In this document: in pieces, positions 12,384 to 21,590 of the stretch | How positions within the stretch are numbered: position 1 is the stretch's first letter | Layout: every line of letters begins with the position of its first letter | Virus record (IMG/VR): IMGVR_UViG_3300035205_000264 | Coordinates: 1 to 21,864 of that record | Strand: one strand, 5' to 3' | Source of the DNA: a virus | Length of the DNA: 21,864 bases | Notes under the pieces: generated by a model | Database searches by the model: none | The model's input: only the letters and a program-made list of their open reading frames with translations | What the model was told of the DNA's origin: nothing | Made by a program: the position numbers and the translations under genes

Positions 12384-13031
12384 ATGCCCATAGATTACGA
12401 TGTGACAGAGAAGCCTGCCACAGCCCCAACAGAGAACGTCCGTAAGGTGATCCGTTCCGGTTGGGCCGCTGTGGACAGCATGAGGTCGGATGACGCTAAC
12501 TACGCCGTCCGACTCAAGACCGGGGCAGACCCGGTGTTGATCAAGTTCCTAGAGGACGCCCCGTACGCCTCGTGGAGGCAGCACTGGGTGAACCGTCCGG
12601 GGCAGAAGTCCTTCATATGCCGTGATGGCATGGACTCCAACGACTGCCCACTGTGTGACGCCGGAAACCGGCCACGTCCTCTGTATGCCTTCAACGTGCT
12701 CCTCATGGAGCGTGGCGAGGAGCCTGCGTTGCGGTCGTACGAGGCAGGGACCCGTGTTATTGCCACCCTCCGCAACTTCAACGATGATGAGCGGCAGGGT
12801 CCCCTGAACAAGCACTACTGGGCCGTCAGCCGAAGTGGTACCGGGCCGCAGACCCAGTACAACCACCTCCTCGTGAAGGAGCGGGACCTCAAGGAAGAAT
12901 GGAATGCCGATCCTCTGGATTCAGACGCACTTGAGGACAGTCTCAAGAAGGCATACACGCCCGACATCCTGAGGATTTCGACGCACGACGAGATGATGAC
13001 CATCGTCAATGAAGACGTTGGAGTCATCTGA
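12384..13031 (+). CDS. Single-strand DNA-binding protein, T4 gp32-like with zinc site
   Basis: This 215-residue protein has H67, C79, C88 and C91 (FICRDG, then CPLC), spaced almost as the His64-Cys77-Cys87-Cys90 zinc site known for T4 gp32. Between and around them are VLIKFLEDAPY, HWVNRPGQ and YAFNVLLMERG, consistent with an OB-fold core. It should coat single-stranded DNA during replication and recombination. A purine-rich site (GAGAGAAGAG) precedes ATG 12384 after a 21-base gap, one of the few real gaps in the operon. A hairpin terminator follows directly, so this gene may be expressed at its own level. The C-terminus is only mildly acidic, unlike the strongly acidic gp32 tail. Confidence 0.75.
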   Translation: MPIDYDVTEKPATAPTENVRKVIRSGWAAVDSMRSDDANYAVRLKTGADPVLIKFLEDAPYASWRQHWVNRPGQKSFICRDGMDSNDCPLCDAGNRPRPLYAFNVLLMERGEEPALRSYEAGTRVIATLRNFNDDERQGPLNKHYWAVSRSGTGPQTQYNHLLVKERDLKEEWNADPLDSDALEDSLKKAYTPDILRISTHDEMMTIVNEDVGVI

Positions 13032-15129
13032 TCGGTTTAGTGGGGATCGGGGGTTGTTCCCTTCCTTTGCTCCCGGTCCCCGCTATTTATCCTCTCTAGA
13101 AGAAGTCAACGACGCTGTTGACATCATCCTACGAGAGCGCGTCTTCGCTTTCGACGTAGAGACCCTCGGGGTACTACAGCACCACCCCGACTTAGAGGAG
13201 TTGGTCGATCAGCAGGTGCGTAGTCATGCGCTGGGCTTAAAGACCACCTCTGAATCTGTCATTGAGCGCTCTCGGGTAGCCAAAGAGCGGAGCATGACCA
13301 AGAGCATCGCCTTGGACCCCCATCGCAATGAGGTCATTTGGCTGGGGCTCGCCACCTACGGGCATTCGTGGGCCATCCCTGTAGGTCACCCGAAAGGGCA
13401 GATTGTGGAGCCGGAGGAGAGCGGGGATGGCACTACCGTGCCCCCGGAGGGGTACCGGAAGGTGCTCAAGAACGGCACAGAGTCTCTGGCTAAGGCGCGC
13501 TACCTGAAGCCTGCCGTCTACTCAAAGCCCCCCCAACAGTTATCTCGTACAGAAGTCTTTGCGGCGTTAAGGCCCATTTTCTTCGATCCAGACATCGTGA
13601 AGGTGGGGCACAACGTCAAGTTCGATTCCCGCACCATCGCCAAGTACTACGGGGAACTCCCTGTGGGGCCGTTCCACGACACCATGCTGCTCCAGCACGT
13701 CTTGGACGAGAACATCTCCTCGTTCCGTCTGACCTCCCTCATCTCCAAGCACTTTCCCGAGCATGATCCGTACGCACGCCACGGGAAGGTGGGAGCCGTC
13801 ATCGGGCAGACGCCGTTCTCGGTGGCCTGCGACTACGTGCATCTGGACGCCCGATGGACGTGGCTGCTGTATCAAAGACTGATGCGGTCAGTCAGGCTTG
13901 TCCCGAAAATGCTCTCTGTGTTTGAGCAGGACGCTGAAGTGTTGGGAGTGCTCATGGCGATGGAGCATGAGGGTATGTCCGTGCATCGTGACGGCATGGC
14001 TGCGTTGGGGGTGGAACTGGATGACCGGATGCAGGAGGTGCTCTCTGAGATCACCGCTCTCACTTATCCCGGCTTCAATCCAGACTCGGTCAAGGACAAG
14101 CGTCTGTTCCTGTTCTCCAAGAAGGCTGATGGGGGTCTGGGGCTCAAGCCCAACAAGCAGACAGACAAGGGACAAGCCTCCGTGGACCAAGAGGCTCTAA
14201 AGGCAATGGGGGACAAGCATCCTGTAGTACCTCTGTTCTTGGCGTGGTCGGAATGCAAGAAGATGAAGTCAACTTATATTGACGGGCTGCTGGAGAAGAT
14301 CAATAACGAGCGCCTACACCCCAACTTCCATCTACACCGCACAGCCACTGGACGACTGTCATCGTCGGAGCCGAACCTCCAGAACATCCCTAGGGACTCC
14401 AGTATCCGTGGTCTCTTTCAGGCCGACCCCGGCTGCACCCTGATCGTTGCTGACTACGACCAGATCGAACTGCGGGTCATGGCGATGTTCAGCCGGGACC
14501 CCAACATGCTGGACATCTTCCATAAGGGTATTGACATTCATGCCGGTGCTGCTGCCTTGGTGTTTGACAAGAACGTCAATGCGGTCACGCACGAAGAGAG
14601 GCAACTCGGTAAGGCAGCGAACTTCCTCACGGCCTACGGAGGAGGGTCTGGCAAACTTGCCGCCACTGCTGGCATAACACAGACACGCGCCAAGTTCGTC
14701 ATCAATCAGTACTACGAGCAGTTCTCTGGGCTGAACAAGTGGAAGAGGAAGATCGCCGCTCAAGCGCAGCGAGACGGGTACGTGACGACAATCTCAGGCC
14801 GACGCCGCAGGCTGTTGGACATCAATTCGGACAAGGAAGACCTGCGTGCCCGAGCAGAGAGGCAGGCTGTGAATGCAGTAATTCAGGGCAGTGCCTCAGA
14901 CATCTGCAAGAAGGCCATGATCAAATCACACCCCGTAGTACTCCAGTTTGGCGGCAAGTTGATAGTGCAGGTTCACGATGAATTAGTGGTCAACGTACCA
15001 GATACAGATGAGGTAGACTTGAAGGCAGAGGCCCTACGCTCCGCTATGGGTCATGGCAAGACCATAAAGGATGTTCCGTTGATAGTTTCGTCACACTCCG
15101 GGCGTACGTGGGCAGAGGCCAAAGGGTGA
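13009..15129 (+). CDS. polA: Family A DNA polymerase with 3'-5' exonuclease domain
   Basis: The 706-residue reading extends from ATG 13009. Exonuclease motifs are present: D49/E51 (FDVETLG), N-x-KFD with D206, and Y276-x3-D280 (YVHLD). Polymerase motif A is D482-YDQIELR, motif B is RQLGKAANFLTAYGGG, and motif C is VHDE (655-658). No 5'-nuclease domain is present, as usual for phage enzymes. Exonuclease motifs I and II are 157 residues apart, far more than the about 70 in E. coli Pol I, implying two insertions of about 40-50 residues. The start is uncertain. ATG 13009 lies inside the preceding gene with a weak ribosome site, while TTG 13018 and TTG 13054 are alternatives. No start codon lies between the hairpin and motif I, so translation must begin before or within the hairpin. 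Confidence 0.95.
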   Translation: MKTLESSDRFSGDRGLFPSFAPGPRYLSSLEEVNDAVDIILRERVFAFDVETLGVLQHHPDLEELVDQQVRSHALGLKTTSESVIERSRVAKERSMTKSIALDPHRNEVIWLGLATYGHSWAIPVGHPKGQIVEPEESGDGTTVPPEGYRKVLKNGTESLAKARYLKPAVYSKPPQQLSRTEVFAALRPIFFDPDIVKVGHNVKFDSRTIAKYYGELPVGPFHDTMLLQHVLDENISSFRLTSLISKHFPEHDPYARHGKVGAVIGQTPFSVACDYVHLDARWTWLLYQRLMRSVRLVPKMLSVFEQDAEVLGVLMAMEHEGMSVHRDGMAALGVELDDRMQEVLSEITALTYPGFNPDSVKDKRLFLFSKKADGGLGLKPNKQTDKGQASVDQEALKAMGDKHPVVPLFLAWSECKKMKSTYIDGLLEKINNERLHPNFHLHRTATGRLSSSEPNLQNIPRDSSIRGLFQADPGCTLIVADYDQIELRVMAMFSRDPNMLDIFHKGIDIHAGAAALVFDKNVNAVTHEERQLGKAANFLTAYGGGSGKLAATAGITQTRAKFVINQYYEQFSGLNKWKRKIAAQAQRDGYVTTISGRRRRLLDINSDKEDLRARAERQAVNAVIQGSASDICKKAMIKSHPVVLQFGGKLIVQVHDELVVNVPDTDEVDLKAEALRSAMGHGKTIKDVPLIVSSHSGRTWAEAKG
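13039..13090 (+). terminator. Terminator-like hairpin after the single-strand DNA-binding protein gene
   Basis: Arms 13039-13051 (AGTGGGGATCGGG) and 13072-13084 pair at all 13 positions, counting two G-U wobbles. The loop is about 20 bases and CTATTTAT follows. It starts 8 bases after the upstream stop. It lies within the 5' end of the polymerase reading frame, with TTG 13054 in its loop, so it may act as a partial terminator or as a translation-controlling structure. The T-run is short, so full termination is uncertain. Confidence 0.7.
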
Positions 15130-16045: not shown

Positions 16046-17056
16046 ATGAAGCAGTATGAGACGCTGGAAGAGATAGCACGAGCCGTAAACAAGAAGGTAG
16101 GTGACGACGTAGTCGTACAGGGAAGTCGCATCTCTGAGAGCCTTCCCCGCATCACCACAGGCATCCTTGCTTTCGACATGATGTTGGGCGGCGGCTGGCC
16201 GATGAATCAGTGGTCTGAGATTGTCGGGGACGAGTCCTCCGGCAAGACGGCTATCGCCTACAAGACCATCGCCGCCAACCAAGCACTGGACCCAGACTGG
16301 GTCGCTTTATGGGTGGCTGCCGAGGAGTACATCCCCGAGTACGCCGAGGCCATCGGTGTCGATCTGGACCGCATGTGGGTGCTTGAGACCAACCTCATGG
16401 AGCAGGCGTACGATCTGGTCATCCGTGCTCTGGACAATCGGGCTGTGGATTGTGTGGTGCTGGACTCACTCCCTGCCTTGGTTCCCGGTGACGAGTACGA
16501 GCGGAGCATGGACGAGTTCACCGTCGGACTGGGTGCCCGCCTCACTGGTAAGTTCTTCCGTAAGTCCTCCAAGGCCCAGCGCCGCTCCCTCATTGAAGAA
16601 GAGAGGGGCTGCACGGGCCTGATCATCAACCAATGGCGGGAGAAGATAGGTGTCATGTGGGGGGACCCACGCACCACCCCCGGAGGCAAGGCCAAGAACT
16701 TCCACTACTTCACCCGTGTAGAGGTGAAGAAGGACGAGTGGCTCAAGGATGGCAAGTCTGCTGTAGGACAGACCATCAAGGGCCGTACTCTCAAGAACAA
16801 GACGTACCGGCCTCAACAGCAGGCTGTCGTTGACTTCTACTTTGCCGAGACGACTGGCTTCCGTGTGGGGGACTTCGACACTGTCAAGGACGTGGTCAAC
16901 ATCGCAATCGCCTGTGAGGTGATCACCAGAGCCGGGGCGTTCTACTCGTATAAGAACGAGAAGTGGCAGGGCAAGGAGAAGGTGTTGGAGGCTATGCGGG
17001 CTGATTTGGACATGCAGGAGACGCTACGCAAAGAACTGATGGGAACGCTGGCATGA
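16046..17056 (+). CDS. recA: RecA-like recombinase
   Basis: This 336-residue strand-exchange ATPase has Walker A GDESSGKT at 61-68, the E93/E94 catalytic region, Walker B CVVLDSLPAL with D140, and a loop 2 segment. The latter, IINQWREKIGVMWGDPRTT followed by PGG, parallels the conserved RecA sequence around FINQIRMKIGV. The C-terminal domain (VDFYFAETTGFRVGDFDTV and onward) is of a phage type. It should coat single-stranded DNA and pair homologous strands, supporting replication restart and recombination alongside the nucleases downstream. The start is supported by the tandem GAAGGG repeat. The stop overlaps the next ATG. Confidence 0.93.
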   Translation: MKQYETLEEIARAVNKKVGDDVVVQGSRISESLPRITTGILAFDMMLGGGWPMNQWSEIVGDESSGKTAIAYKTIAANQALDPDWVALWVAAEEYIPEYAEAIGVDLDRMWVLETNLMEQAYDLVIRALDNRAVDCVVLDSLPALVPGDEYERSMDEFTVGLGARLTGKFFRKSSKAQRRSLIEEERGCTGLIINQWREKIGVMWGDPRTTPGGKAKNFHYFTRVEVKKDEWLKDGKSAVGQTIKGRTLKNKTYRPQQQAVVDFYFAETTGFRVGDFDTVKDVVNIAIACEVITRAGAFYSYKNEKWQGKEKVLEAMRADLDMQETLRKELMGTLA

Positions 17057-17313
17057 CAGAGACACTGGACCGGGGCTGGGTGGAGGACGCCAAGTGCCGG
17101 GGAGAAGACGTTAACCTGTTCCACCCCGTGAAGGGGGTGGGCATGATAGAAATACAGAGTCGGGCCGTGGAAATCTGCAACATGTGTAAAGTGCGAAAGC
17201 AGTGCTTGGAGTACTCTGTGAAGAATATGGAGGAAGTAGGAGTGTGGGGTGGCTATACCTCTCGGCAGAGGCGCTACTTTCGTAATAGGTACATAAGTGG
17301 AGAATGGCCGTGA
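17053..17313 (+). CDS. whiB: WhiB-family iron-sulfur transcription regulator
   Basis: This 86-residue protein has the four WhiB cysteines C15, C42, C45 and C51 (C-x26-C-x2-C-x5-C), the GVWGG turn at 63-67, and a basic tail (RQRRYFRNRY). WhiB proteins bind a [4Fe-4S] cluster and the primary sigma factor, and are essentially limited to Actinobacteria and their phages, which is the best host clue in this window. Phage copies are known to interfere with host WhiB regulation. It overlaps recA by the ATGA junction and is followed by a GTGA overlap with a tiny membrane protein gene. Confidence 0.95.
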   Translation: MTETLDRGWVEDAKCRGEDVNLFHPVKGVGMIEIQSRAVEICNMCKVRKQCLEYSVKNMEEVGVWGGYTSRQRRYFRNRYISGEWP

Positions 17314-17895: not shown

Positions 17896-18198
17896 ATGAC
17901 TGACATCCACAAGCGCTCTCAAAAGCAGGAAGAGCGTACAGCCGAGAAGTACGACGGCAGCCGTAATGTCATGTCCGGGGCCGGGTGGGTACGCAAGAAC
18001 GACGTACGTGCTATCAACCTTCTGATAGAGAACAAGTTCACCGACAAGAAGTCGTTCTCCATCAAGGCCGAGGAGATGGTGAAACTGGCACGCACGGCCA
18101 TACTGGAGGATAGAGTTCCTGTATTGCAGGTTGATCTAGGAGGACGGTCTTACGTAGTGTTATTAGAAGACGACTTTCTGGCGATGGTGGCGGACTAG
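17896..18198 (+). CDS. Hjc/VSR-like small PD-(D/E)XK nuclease
   Basis: This compact 100-residue protein has E13 (or E17), the SGAG turn at 27-30, D36, and E45-N-K47 in LLIENKFT, followed by a helix (AEEMVKLARTAI) and strands ending in YVVLLEDDF. Order and spacing resemble archaeal Hjc-type Holliday junction resolvases and related phage endonucleases. It may cut branched DNA formed during recombination or before packaging. The start is abutted to the previous stop (TAG then ATG) without a clear ribosome site, so translation probably depends on the preceding nuclease gene, which begins with a near-identical 18-base sequence. Confidence 0.78.
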   Translation: MTDIHKRSQKQEERTAEKYDGSRNVMSGAGWVRKNDVRAINLLIENKFTDKKSFSIKAEEMVKLARTAILEDRVPVLQVDLGGRSYVVLLEDDFLAMVAD

Positions 18199-18390: not shown

Positions 18391-18608
18391 AGCACGTCAT
18401 CCACGTTCACCAGCAGAAGATCAAGAAAGGCGAACCGGCCATCATCGACCGCACCTACAAGGGATCAAAGCACCTGACGAGGCTTCAGATACATGGCCCC
18501 TGTGAGATCATCCACTCCCTGACACCGGATCGTTGCGGTGCCCGTGTCTGGATTGAGACGGAGGGCCCCGTGACACACATAGCAACAGACTGGGAAGATG
18601 TAACATGA
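18387..18608 (+). CDS. Small conserved-looking protein of unknown function
   Basis: This 73-residue protein is rich in His, Lys and Ile at the N-terminus (KHVIHVHQQKIKKG). The strands DRTYKGSKHLTRLQI, HGPCEII and ARVWIETEGPVTHIA suggest a small beta-barrel-like fold. ATG 18387 overlaps the upstream stop. The longer frame from 18369 has no better start signal. It runs into the Cas4-like gene by ATGA overlap. I do not recognise a family; nucleic acid binding is possible from its basic character. Confidence 0.65.
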   Translation: MKHVIHVHQQKIKKGEPAIIDRTYKGSKHLTRLQIHGPCEIIHSLTPDRCGARVWIETEGPVTHIATDWEDVT

Positions 18609-19492
18609 CTGATGACGCTTGGAAGGTCGAAGCCATGAAGGCCACTATGGAGAACCGTTCTACGTTGGTCTCTCTGATACACCCTAAACTGCTTGCCGAC
18701 TACAAGGAGAACTCTTCTCTACGAGACAGTGAGCACTACCACCCCAGCGATATGTGCAAGAGGGACTGGTGCGTCAGGCAGAGCGTGTACCGCATGCTTC
18801 AGTTGCCGGAGAGCAACACGGAGCGGGCCAAGCCCTTCCAGACCCTTAACATCTTCGAGGAGGGCCACCGCATCCACCGTAAGTGGCAGGGATGGCTCAA
18901 GGACGCTGGGGTGCTCCGGGGCCAATGGTTCTGCAACCTCTGCTACCACGAGTGGTACGGGGAGCCCGTCTGTGGGTACTGCAAGTCTAAGGACGTGGGG
19001 TACAAGGAGGTTCCGGTCTACGACGAGGAGCATCACATCCTTGGGCACGCCGATGGTCACCTCGTACTACCAGACGGGGATGCTCTGCTGGAGGTCAAGA
19101 GCGTTGGCATCGGTACCTTTCGGTACGAGGACATGCCCTTGTTCAAGCAGTACGCTTCCAAGGAGATCACAGCCGAAGAGATGTGGAGGTCCGTCACCAA
19201 GCCCTTCCTGTCTCACCTGAGGCAGGGCACCCTCTACATGCACTGCACGGGCATCCACCGTATGATCTTTGTCTATGAGTGGAAGGCCGGTCAGGAGGTC
19301 AGGGAGTTCACGGTCAAGTATCAGCCCGAGGTCATTGCGGACATCCTCGCTGCCTGTAGGGTGGGCCTGTCGTACCTCAACCGTGAAGCCCTACCGCCCC
19401 GCCCGGTGTGGGTATCTCAGGACAAGGCACCCTGTAAGTACTGTTCCTATCGGACCACCTGCTGGGAGGACCCAGATAATGTCTCTTCCTGA
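18605..19492 (+). CDS. Cas4/RecB-like PD-(D/E)XK exonuclease with iron-sulfur cysteines
   Basis: This is a 295-residue protein. Nuclease motifs are H88 in EEGHRIH, D150 in LGHADGHL, and E163-V-K165 in LLEVKSVG, as in RecB/Cas4-type exonucleases. C51 together with C277, C280 and C286 (CKYC, then C) matches the cysteine layout that holds a [4Fe-4S] cluster in Cas4 and AddB. An additional four-cysteine knuckle, C110/C113 and C123/C126, is inserted between the histidine and aspartate motifs. The enzyme should resect DNA ends to make single strands for the RecA-like protein. No CRISPR array or other cas gene is present, so this is a phage recombination nuclease rather than part of a CRISPR system. 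Confidence 0.88.
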   Translation: MTDDAWKVEAMKATMENRSTLVSLIHPKLLADYKENSSLRDSEHYHPSDMCKRDWCVRQSVYRMLQLPESNTERAKPFQTLNIFEEGHRIHRKWQGWLKDAGVLRGQWFCNLCYHEWYGEPVCGYCKSKDVGYKEVPVYDEEHHILGHADGHLVLPDGDALLEVKSVGIGTFRYEDMPLFKQYASKEITAEEMWRSVTKPFLSHLRQGTLYMHCTGIHRMIFVYEWKAGQEVREFTVKYQPEVIADILAACRVGLSYLNREALPPRPVWVSQDKAPCKYCSYRTTCWEDPDNVSS

Positions 19493-19955
19493 AACCCATG
19501 CACGGTTCGACCTCAAGTTCACGCTCCCCGAGAGGCCCGGCAGCGACATGCCGAACCTCCCGCTGGAACTTGATGACCTAACTGATGCTAGTCTTATGTC
19601 TGTGTACAGTGAGACTGTGGCATGGGTCAACTACGCCAAGGCTGAACTAGCCAAGGCCGAGATACTGGAAGAAGGAGCACTGAGCGCTTTAAGGCAGACC
19701 GAGGCCGAGGCCCTGCTCGACCAGTGGGACTCCGTGAGCAAGGGTGACCGGGTGACGATGGCTAAGGCACGCCGTGACATCGACCCGCGAGTAGTAGAAC
19801 ATCACCATAGGCACTTGCAGGCAAGGGCCTACCGGAAGATGGTGGACACGGTGTTCGACCGGGGCGAGCGTAACGCCAATGTCCTCTCCCGGGAACTCAG
19901 TCGTCGTATCAGTGTTGCTCCCACCGAGCGGCGCCTTCAGTGGACTGGTGCGTAA
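19479..19955 (+). CDS. Helical protein of unknown function
   Basis: ATG 19479 has GGGAGGA 8 bases upstream and lies inside the end of the Cas4-like gene. The product has 158 residues. Residues about 40-75 form a long helix (AWVNYAKAELAKAEILEEG), and the rest is also helical and highly charged (RDIDPRVVEHHHRHLQARAY, then a basic end). The longer open frame from 19269 lies inside the nuclease gene and is rejected. Small helical proteins are often encoded beside phage recombination exonucleases, and a partner role is plausible. No family is recognised. Confidence 0.68.
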   Translation: MSLPETHARFDLKFTLPERPGSDMPNLPLELDDLTDASLMSVYSETVAWVNYAKAELAKAEILEEGALSALRQTEAEALLDQWDSVSKGDRVTMAKARRDIDPRVVEHHHRHLQARAYRKMVDTVFDRGERNANVLSRELSRRISVAPTERRLQWTGA

Positions 19956-19957
19956 CC

Positions 19958-20323
19958 GTGAGTAACCCGTCCAAGCAGAAAGGCACATCGTTTGAGACCC
20001 TGATACGGGACTATTTGCGTATGGTGGGGTTCAGGGCCGCTCATCGAGTAGCCCTATCTGGTAGTCAGGACACGGGGGACATCAATGGTATCTTCCATCC
20101 TTCCACAGGACGGGAAGTGGCCGTCCAGTGTAAGAACCAGAGGACGTTCAAACTCAGCGAATGGTTGAACGACACTGTTGAACAAGCACGTAAACTAGAT
20201 AATGCCGTGCCCCTGCTGACCGTGAAGCGTCCCGGCAAGGGCGAGAAGTCCCTTGATGACACCTACGTCGTGATGCGGTTGTGTGATGCGGTAGAACTAC
20301 TGAAGGAGGCTGGCTACACCTAA
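19958..20323 (+). CDS. Holliday junction resolvase-like nuclease
   Basis: From GTG 19958 the protein has 121 residues and begins MSNPSKQKGTSFE. It shows E13 in the first helix, D41 in DTGDINGIF, and Q57-C-K59 in VAVQCKNQ, followed by a helix (WLNDTVEQARK). This is the layout of resolvase-like PD-(D/E)XK proteins common in actinophages. The usual acidic residue of the ExK motif is a glutamine, a variant known in Mrr-type nucleases, so the enzyme may still be active. An alternative GTG at 19940 would add 6 residues. It likely cuts branched or newly recombined DNA. Confidence 0.82.
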   Translation: MSNPSKQKGTSFETLIRDYLRMVGFRAAHRVALSGSQDTGDINGIFHPSTGREVAVQCKNQRTFKLSEWLNDTVEQARKLDNAVPLLTVKRPGKGEKSLDDTYVVMRLCDAVELLKEAGYT

Positions 20324-20357: not shown

Positions 20358-20364
20358 AAAGGAG
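20358..20364 (+). promoter_or_regulatory. Strong ribosome-binding site of the SpoVS-like gene
   Basis: AAAGGAG lies 7 bases before ATG 20372 and is the closest to consensus in the window. It lies in a 48-base gap (20324-20371) that otherwise shows only a weak AGACG/CGTCT inverted repeat. I see no clear promoter there. Confidence 0.8.
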
Positions 20365-20371
20365 TAGTCAT

Positions 20372-20668
20372 ATGTCAGAAGACCAGTCCCCCCATGTGGA
20401 CACTGAGGCGGTTATCAAGGTTTCTGGTTCCAGCAACCCACAGAGCGTGGGCTCTATTCTTGCTAGGGCCATCTCCTCCGGGCACACCCCCAAGATGCGG
20501 GCCATCGGGGCTAGCGCCGTCAACCAATCGGTGAAGGCATGCGCCATCGCCCGAGGATTTGTGGCCCCGAGAGGGCTGGATGTCGTGTACATCATTGGAT
20601 TTGATGATATTATTGGTGATGACGGTGTTACTATATCCGCTATGTTCTTCAGGCCGGTGATCCGATGA
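20372..20668 (+). CDS. spoVS: SpoVS-family protein
   Basis: The 98-residue product matches the whole SpoVS pattern. VIKVSGSSNPQSVGSILARA is followed by MRAIGASAVNQSVKACAIAR, then GFVAPRGLD and a final strand pair ending FFRPVI. Cellular SpoVS proteins are small, abundant and thought to bind nucleic acid; they act late in sporulation in Bacillus and occur in many non-spore-formers. The N-terminal eight residues are an acidic addition (SEDQSPHVD). It has the best ribosome-binding site in the window, so strong expression is expected. Its ATGA junction couples it to the next gene. A phage copy could compact DNA or act on host regulation; that part is inference. Confidence 0.9.
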   Translation: MSEDQSPHVDTEAVIKVSGSSNPQSVGSILARAISSGHTPKMRAIGASAVNQSVKACAIARGFVAPRGLDVVYIIGFDDIIGDDGVTISAMFFRPVIR

Positions 20669-20904
20669 CGATGGTTATACCCAATCAGAAGCAGGCCCTA
20701 GAGGACTTGGAGAAACTGCGCCCCATCGGTGAAATACGTGGGGGCAATCAGGTGTGGCCGTCCGAGATAACCCGTACCGGGAAGATCAAGAAGCACGCTG
20801 CGCGGTTCAAGAACCCCCGACCGGTCACTATCGCCGGTAACACCGATAGCCCCCCGACCAGCCCAGACTTCGGTGGTACGGGCCTGAAAGTGATGGGAAC
20901 CTAA
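20665..20904 (+). CDS. Small basic protein of unknown function
   Basis: This 79-residue protein overlaps the SpoVS stop (ATGA). A second in-frame ATG at 20671 is possible. The first half is a short helix (KQALEDLEKL), followed by EIRGGNQVWPSEI and a basic stretch (KIKKHAARFK). The C-terminus is proline/glycine-rich and disordered-looking (NTDSPPTSPDFGGTG), and contains one GATAGCCCC repeat. Coupling to SpoVS upstream and a DNA-binding-like gene downstream suggests a shared job, which remains unknown. Confidence 0.6.
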   Translation: MTMVIPNQKQALEDLEKLRPIGEIRGGNQVWPSEITRTGKIKKHAARFKNPRPVTIAGNTDSPPTSPDFGGTGLKVMGT

Positions 20905-21590
20905 TGCCAGTGGGGAAAGACACGGACCGGACTGGTCAGGGGCGTTTGCCTCGTGACTTCGACTTTGCAGGCTGGGGCCTCCACTCCGGCGAGTCAGGTG
21001 AGGATGTCTTCGACACCGAGAACCGCACCATGAGGCAGTTGACCGGTGCGCTTAACGAAACTGTTACTCTGAACGATATTTCTGAGTTGACTGGACACAC
21101 ATATGCGAACTTGCAGAACTGGGCGAGGAGGACTGATGATTTCTTCCCAAAGTCCATCCCGGGATCAGGCAATGTGGGTCCCACAGGGGCTGTCTCTGGT
21201 GTACTTTACCGTCTGACTGATGTCGTCAACTGGAACGACAACTTTGAACCATTAAAGAGGGGTCGGAAGTTGGGGAGCGGAAAGGCACCCACAGAAGAAG
21301 AATCTACGCCTAAGCCGTACGACCCCGAAACGGACATAAGTCGCAACCTCCAAAGACACATGGAGGCATTCCTGAGTGGGAGAATCGACCCCGACTCCAA
21401 GTGGCCCCAAAGGGTCGAGACTGGTGACCTACGGCCGGTCGAAAAGACTATGCCCACCGAGATACCGAAGTCCAAGAAGCAGAAGAGGGCTAAGGATCAG
21501 AGGCGGAAGATAGAGGATAAGTTGAAAGAAAGTAAAGAGAAAGACGAAGGCAGGGACATTGAGGGATACCCCGGAAAGAAGTTCTGGTAA
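20904..21590 (+). CDS. Putative DNA-binding protein with lysine-rich tail
   Basis: This is a 228-residue protein. Residues about 50-105 look like a MerR/excisionase-type winged helix (TLNDISELTGHTYANLQNW, then DDFFPKSIPGSG and VLYRLTDVVNW, which resembles the closing wing). The last 45 residues are highly charged with many lysines (KSKKQKRAKDQRRKIEDKL), probably a disordered or coiled tail. ATG 20904 overlaps the upstream stop (TAATG). Helix-turn-helix proteins of this shape include regulators and small terminase subunits. It is placed just upstream of an unseen region, so a packaging role is possible but unsupported. Confidence 0.62.
   Translation: MPVGKDTDRTGQGRLPRDFDFAGWGLHSGESGEDVFDTENRTMRQLTGALNETVTLNDISELTGHTYANLQNWARRTDDFFPKSIPGSGNVGPTGAVSGVLYRLTDVVNWNDNFEPLKRGRKLGSGKAPTEEESTPKPYDPETDISRNLQRHMEAFLSGRIDPDSKWPQRVETGDLRPVEKTMPTEIPKSKKQKRAKDQRRKIEDKLKESKEKDEGRDIEGYPGKKFW

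Follow-up and report, generated by a model that had tools for sequence, protein, structure and literature searches.

A SpoVS-family protein encoded directly behind exchangeable Holliday-junction resolvase-type genes in a lineage of actinophage-like viruses

SpoVS (PF04232) has been described from Bacillus subtilis and from Thermus (structures 2EH1/2EK0). The name comes from a sporulation phenotype (Resnekov 1995, as cited in PMC8940887). Its biochemical role has long been unclear and, as a result, metagenome papers have read viral spoVS as a sporulation switch. Viral copies have been reported as auxiliary or sporulation genes (PMC6172770, PMC8940887), and the family is also represented among phage proteins by PHROG_35646. 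A quite different system provides a point of comparison for what follows. In Sulfolobus, the double-stranded DNA-binding chromatin protein Sso7d releases Hjc, a resolvase, from product inhibition (Kvaratskhelia 2002, as related in PMC6776556). The presence of SpoVS in phages is therefore not new. What appears to be unreported is its unvarying position next to Holliday-junction resolvases that are themselves exchanged, and a link between SpoVS and a phage resolvase was not found in the searchable literature at the level of titles and abstracts. An earlier sequence-only reading of this DNA also missed the resolvase neighbor.

The window (the whole stretch of DNA analyzed) is a complete IMG/VR record of 21,864 bases. 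Its genes lie on the plus strand in the order baseplate/tail, DnaB, primase-like, SNF2-type helicase, family A DNA polymerase (PolA), RecA-type recombinase, WhiB, phrog_2002 "resolvase," Cas4-domain exonuclease, PDDEXK nuclease and SpoVS, followed by unknown genes. A chromosomal origin of the window, with SpoVS copies confined to cells, is ruled out by the virus record and its baseplate, PolA, DnaB, RecA-type and WhiB genes. The earlier description of the genome as actinophage-like is upheld by the WhiB gene, which suggests an actinobacterial host, and by the nearest cultured phages with this SpoVS, which are the Streptomyces phages LuckySocke, Alone3 and BRock. The lineage is a large phage group that comprises environmental viral contigs and Borockvirus-type Streptomyces phages. 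The features used below are as follows, with counts out of 80 viral relatives.

13009-15129, plus strand: family A DNA polymerase (phrog_17, E 8e-123; family in 74/80)
16046-17056, plus strand: RecA-type recombinase (PF00154, E 7.5e-49; family in 74/80)
17053-17313, plus strand: WhiB-family transcription factor (PF02467, E 2.6e-19)
17896-18198, plus strand: small phrog_2002 "Holliday junction resolvase"-type protein (E 1.2e-19; 75/80)
18605-19492, plus strand: Cas4-domain exonuclease (phrog_2506, E 2e-33; 79/80)
19479-19955, plus strand: conserved protein between Cas4 exonuclease and resolvase, start approximate (family in 79/80; no Pfam match)
19940-20323, plus strand: Hjc-like PDDEXK nuclease, putative Holliday-junction resolvase, directly 5' of SpoVS (profiles and model; 80/80)
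20358-20364, plus strand: Shine-Dalgarno sequence AAAGGAG, 7 nt ahead of the SpoVS ATG (sequence)
20372-20668, plus strand: SpoVS-family protein, 98 aa, predicted Alba-like fold, residues 12-98 structured (PF04232, AlphaFold model and fold matches)
20665-20904, plus strand: small protein whose start overlaps the SpoVS stop, ATGA at 20665-20668 (sequence; 5/80)
20904-21590, plus strand: protein whose start overlaps the stop of the preceding gene, TAATG at 20902-20906 (sequence; 0/80)

It is clear that the 98-residue product belongs to the SpoVS family, as the sequence-only reading had proposed from a near-complete signature. The PF04232 profile matches residues 14-92 with 69.8 bits (E 1.6e-19) against a curated Pfam cut-off of 24 bits, and PHROG_35646, "sporulation protein," matches with E 3.1e-16. 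Thermus SpoVS is the sole convincing solved relative by sequence (E 7.6e-11). Judged by these scores, the match is not due to chance. The signature core named earlier is present, as are all of the family-invariant residues G46, A47, N51, Q52, K55, G68 and F77, which are constant in an alignment of 56 viral and cellular SpoVS sequences. For pairs with estimable dS, phage SpoVS has a dN/dS of 0.02-0.16, a sign of purifying selection.

The fold is predicted to be that of Alba. An AlphaFold model, made from an alignment of 56 sequences, has a pLDDT of 88.7 with low confidence in the first 11 residues. In VIA-align it matches Thermus SpoVS with Z 15.8 (rmsd 1.2-1.3 over 86 residues) and the SpoVS chain of 9a7h with Z 16.4. 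Many Alba entries, among them archaeal Alba and Sso10b, match with Z about 10, which exceeds the level described with VIA-align for chance matches; a Foldseek search of the model was also run. Phage SpoVS thus shares profile, fold and invariant residues with the cellular proteins. The likeness to the archaeal chromatin proteins is one of fold, at 13-19% identity. Alba is strongly basic, whereas phage SpoVS is close to neutral with a net charge of only about +1, and its binding of nucleic acid is a prediction.

The immediate surroundings of the gene are less exceptional than had been thought. The feature had been drawn at 20358-20668. Its end stands, but at 20358 it is the Shine-Dalgarno sequence that starts, and the reading frame begins at 20372. 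AAAGGAG at a spacing of 7 nt is indeed a good ribosome-binding site, and a Shine-Dalgarno sequence of at least 4 nt precedes SpoVS in 77/81 relatives. However, it is not the strongest site in the window, as had been claimed. By anti-Shine-Dalgarno hybridization energy it ranks about 7th among 28 genes, some of whose starts are approximate, and 11% of all the window's start codons reach a score as good. Likewise, the coupling to two downstream genes is real in the window and is not a conserved trait, as the first of these genes recurs in 5/80 relatives and the second in none. The product of the first (20665-20904) has weak similarity to mycobacteriophage proteins annotated as head-tail adaptors (49% over 48 aa, E 8e-3).

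What is conserved lies upstream. A viral search with SpoVS gave 182 related contigs, 80 of which were kept as the group A sample. Besides the families counted in the list above, the helicase family was found in 58 of them; the absences are probably due largely to the ends of contigs or loci, and the wider order of the module is conserved. These contigs were selected by SpoVS, so sampling was repeated without that selection. Among RecA-selected viral contigs with at least 4.5 kb of downstream sequence, SpoVS was present in 28/28, and among PDDEXK-selected viral contigs it lay immediately 3' of the nuclease gene in 58/58. Exactly one copy was found in 14 of the 15 viral records checked, the 15th being an 18-kb fragment. 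In every sampled member, then, SpoVS is a core gene of a RecA/PolA/Cas4-exonuclease module, which it closes.

The gene directly upstream of SpoVS in the window encodes a putative resolvase. Its product matches PF24608 (E 1.4e-8) and Mrr_cat in Pfam, phrog_244 "HJ resolvase" with E 3e-27, and the profiles of Hjc structures 4TKK/1HH1 with E 0.001. The eight best fold matches of its model are all archaeal Hjc/Hje (Z 8.6-7.6), and Foldseek returns Hjc and then RecU. Together these are moderately strong grounds for placing the predicted fold closest to Hjc. In the E..D..ExK motif, D47 and K65 are conserved; the last element is QxK in group A, the window's clade, and ExK in group B rows. With this variant the enzyme is likely, but no more than likely, to be active. 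Further upstream in the same module, the phrog_2002 protein is a second small resolvase-type protein, and the phage may therefore have two junction or branch nucleases.

Group B, a second set of viral relatives (L088-L167), was collected using BRock SpoVS as query. In all 162 loci sampled from groups A and B, SpoVS is immediately preceded on its own strand by a resolvase-type gene. However, the enzyme is not always the same. It is PDDEXK (Hjc-like; PF24608/phrog_244) in 146 loci, RuvC (PF02075/phrog_159) in 10 and endonuclease VII (EndoVII; PF02945, E 3e-27) in 6, with median gaps to SpoVS of 43, 89 and 124 nt, respectively. The gap is at most 125 nt in 161/162 loci, the outlier (L112) having 658 nt. 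The three enzymes have unrelated folds, namely PDDEXK, RNase H-like (RuvC) and His-Me/HNH (endonuclease VII). The exchange is clearest between L102 (PDDEXK) and L103 (EndoVII), where SpoVS is 100% identical and the DNA alignment, at 84-86% on both sides, breaks off exactly at the resolvase gene. The same exchange recurs between L096 and both L098 and L094. By automatic gene models, the genes at positions -2 and +1 differ between the two groups and often within each. Only the pairing of resolvase and SpoVS is constant.

Is the association equally strict from the side of the other two enzymes? For loci selected by EndoVII, SpoVS was present in all 17 of the closest (at least 67% identity, downstream sequence present). 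More distant EndoVII genes, mostly at 64% identity or below, had no SpoVS nearby in 63 loci, two of which were cut by the contig end and many of which are isolate records of about 50-54 kb. Therefore, the EndoVII family is not generally dependent on SpoVS. The RuvC of BRock, used as query, found only BRock itself and one weak match without recognizable SpoVS context, and the RuvC count above rests on loci selected by SpoVS. Other viral SpoVS genes that were examined, from Lysinibacillus phage LysYB1 and Stenotrophomonas phage TS-12, have no annotated resolvase alongside, and the LysYB1 protein gave no matches as a viral query. In another setting, a Firmicutes-type viral contig (L182:5305-9255), SpoVS lies directly ahead of SSB-like and PolA-like genes, both recognized by eye. 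Here too the surroundings are a replication module.

The suggestion that phage copies form a clade of their own is borne out for this lineage. In a tree of 87 rows and only 93 columns, all SpoVS of groups A and B form one clade with support 100/99, apart from cellular SpoVS; the clade is firm, and the inner order and root are not. The cellular sample is almost all Bacillota. The SpoVS of gut, Lysinibacillus and Stenotrophomonas phages fall among cellular copies, as expected of separate captures. One record deposited as a gut bacteriophage (MT835471.1) was set aside as chromosomal because of its purA-ymdB-spoVS order, with purA and ymdB recognized by eye. No match in a cellular genome exceeded 57% over alignments of 67-71 residues, and these matches are mostly from Bacillota. 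Most cellular copies differ at the residues R43, V50, R67, G76, G85, I88 and S89 that the A and B proteins have in common, and the extra arginines R43 and R67 are invariant in the clade; with G76, I88 and S89 they mark it off from cellular SpoVS. The tree points to a deep clade of its own with no recent capture from a host. The gene neighborhood differs as well. The phage gene stands behind a Holliday-junction resolvase, whereas the cellular gene (L185-L264, mostly Bacillota) stands downstream of ymdB (63/77 loci), rny (66/75) and recA (52/75, counted within the fetched flank).

What might SpoVS do beside a resolvase? The reading that we favor, and to which we give about even weight for and against, is that it is a dimeric nucleic-acid-binding accessory in the processing of recombination intermediates, acting with whichever resolvase the phage carries. 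As an Alba-like dimer, SpoVS would bind branched or duplex intermediates. Possible actions are to stack the junction or keep it in place, to shield its arms, or to help the resolvase off its product, and concatemeric or recombined DNA would thereby become packageable. Cooperation would run through the DNA substrate and not through a resolvase-specific contact, since swapping the resolvase would be expected to break any contact tied to a single enzyme fold. Sso7d and Hjc could serve as a precedent for such a mechanism, since they too are a small DNA-binding protein and an Hjc-type PDDEXK resolvase, although Sso7d has a different fold from phage SpoVS. A broader version, which we hold as a tentative and rather doubtful extension, makes SpoVS a fold-independent resolvase partner, an Alba-type protein that conditions the junction for PDDEXK, RuvC or EndoVII. 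By extension, the role of cellular SpoVS (recA-rny-ymdB-spoVS) would lie in recombining or segregating the chromosome, and the sporulation defect would follow from this.

Adjacency is not biochemistry, however, and if resolvases are exchanged in situ by way of homologous flanks, SpoVS would stay beside the slot even without cooperation. SpoVS might be a passive neighbor, essential for something unrelated and kept in place by an inflexible order of genes. The 84-86% identity around the swapped resolvase and the conserved order of the wider module fit this, yet the -2 and +1 genes vary between and within groups while the pair is constant in 162/162 loci, and we consider it unlikely. The low charge, less basic than that of Alba, also speaks against the favored cooperation. 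It speaks, too, against a nucleoid-like coat that compacts or protects phage DNA as archaeal Alba does, independently of the resolvase. The Alba fold and a core gene with a good ribosome-binding site would suit a coat, which nevertheless seems quite unlikely with a near-neutral protein, an unexceptional ribosome-binding site and the resolvase link left unexplained. For the first two of these reasons the earlier proposal of an abundant DNA- or RNA-coating protein, deduced from strong expression, is not supported, as coating proteins are strongly basic. Decidedly unlikely, too, is an RNA-binding regulator that tunes decay or translation. Alba-type folds often bind RNA (PMC11621453), and the SpoVS of the rny-ymdB-spoVS cluster is a relative with RNA-decay neighbors. 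The phage neighbors, however, are DNA recombination genes, and the cellular gene is also found near recA.

There remains the auxiliary sporulation gene or tool against host development, the latter being among the earlier proposals. This reading is highly improbable and the least compatible with the data. It has on its side the listing of viral spoVS among sporulation auxiliary genes (PMC6172770, PMC8940887) and the PHROG category "moron/host takeover." An auxiliary gene is optional, host-derived and patchy, whereas here SpoVS is a single-copy core gene inside a replication and recombination module (28/28 and 58/58), with a fixed resolvase neighbor and a clade of its own. Moreover, Corynebacterium glutamicum, the sole control genome matching the actinobacterial WhiB family, had no SpoVS. 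The auxiliary or sporulation reading of viral spoVS is thus unfit for this lineage, and viral spoVS should not be taken as evidence that a phage controls host sporulation. The pairing with three unrelated Holliday-junction resolvases offers instead a specific alternative, the processing of recombination intermediates, which is testable by a simple in vitro assay. As for cellular SpoVS, a crosslinking model outside the window (PDB 9a7h) places the SpoVS chain (SP5S) together with YunD, which may point to a partner in the cell.
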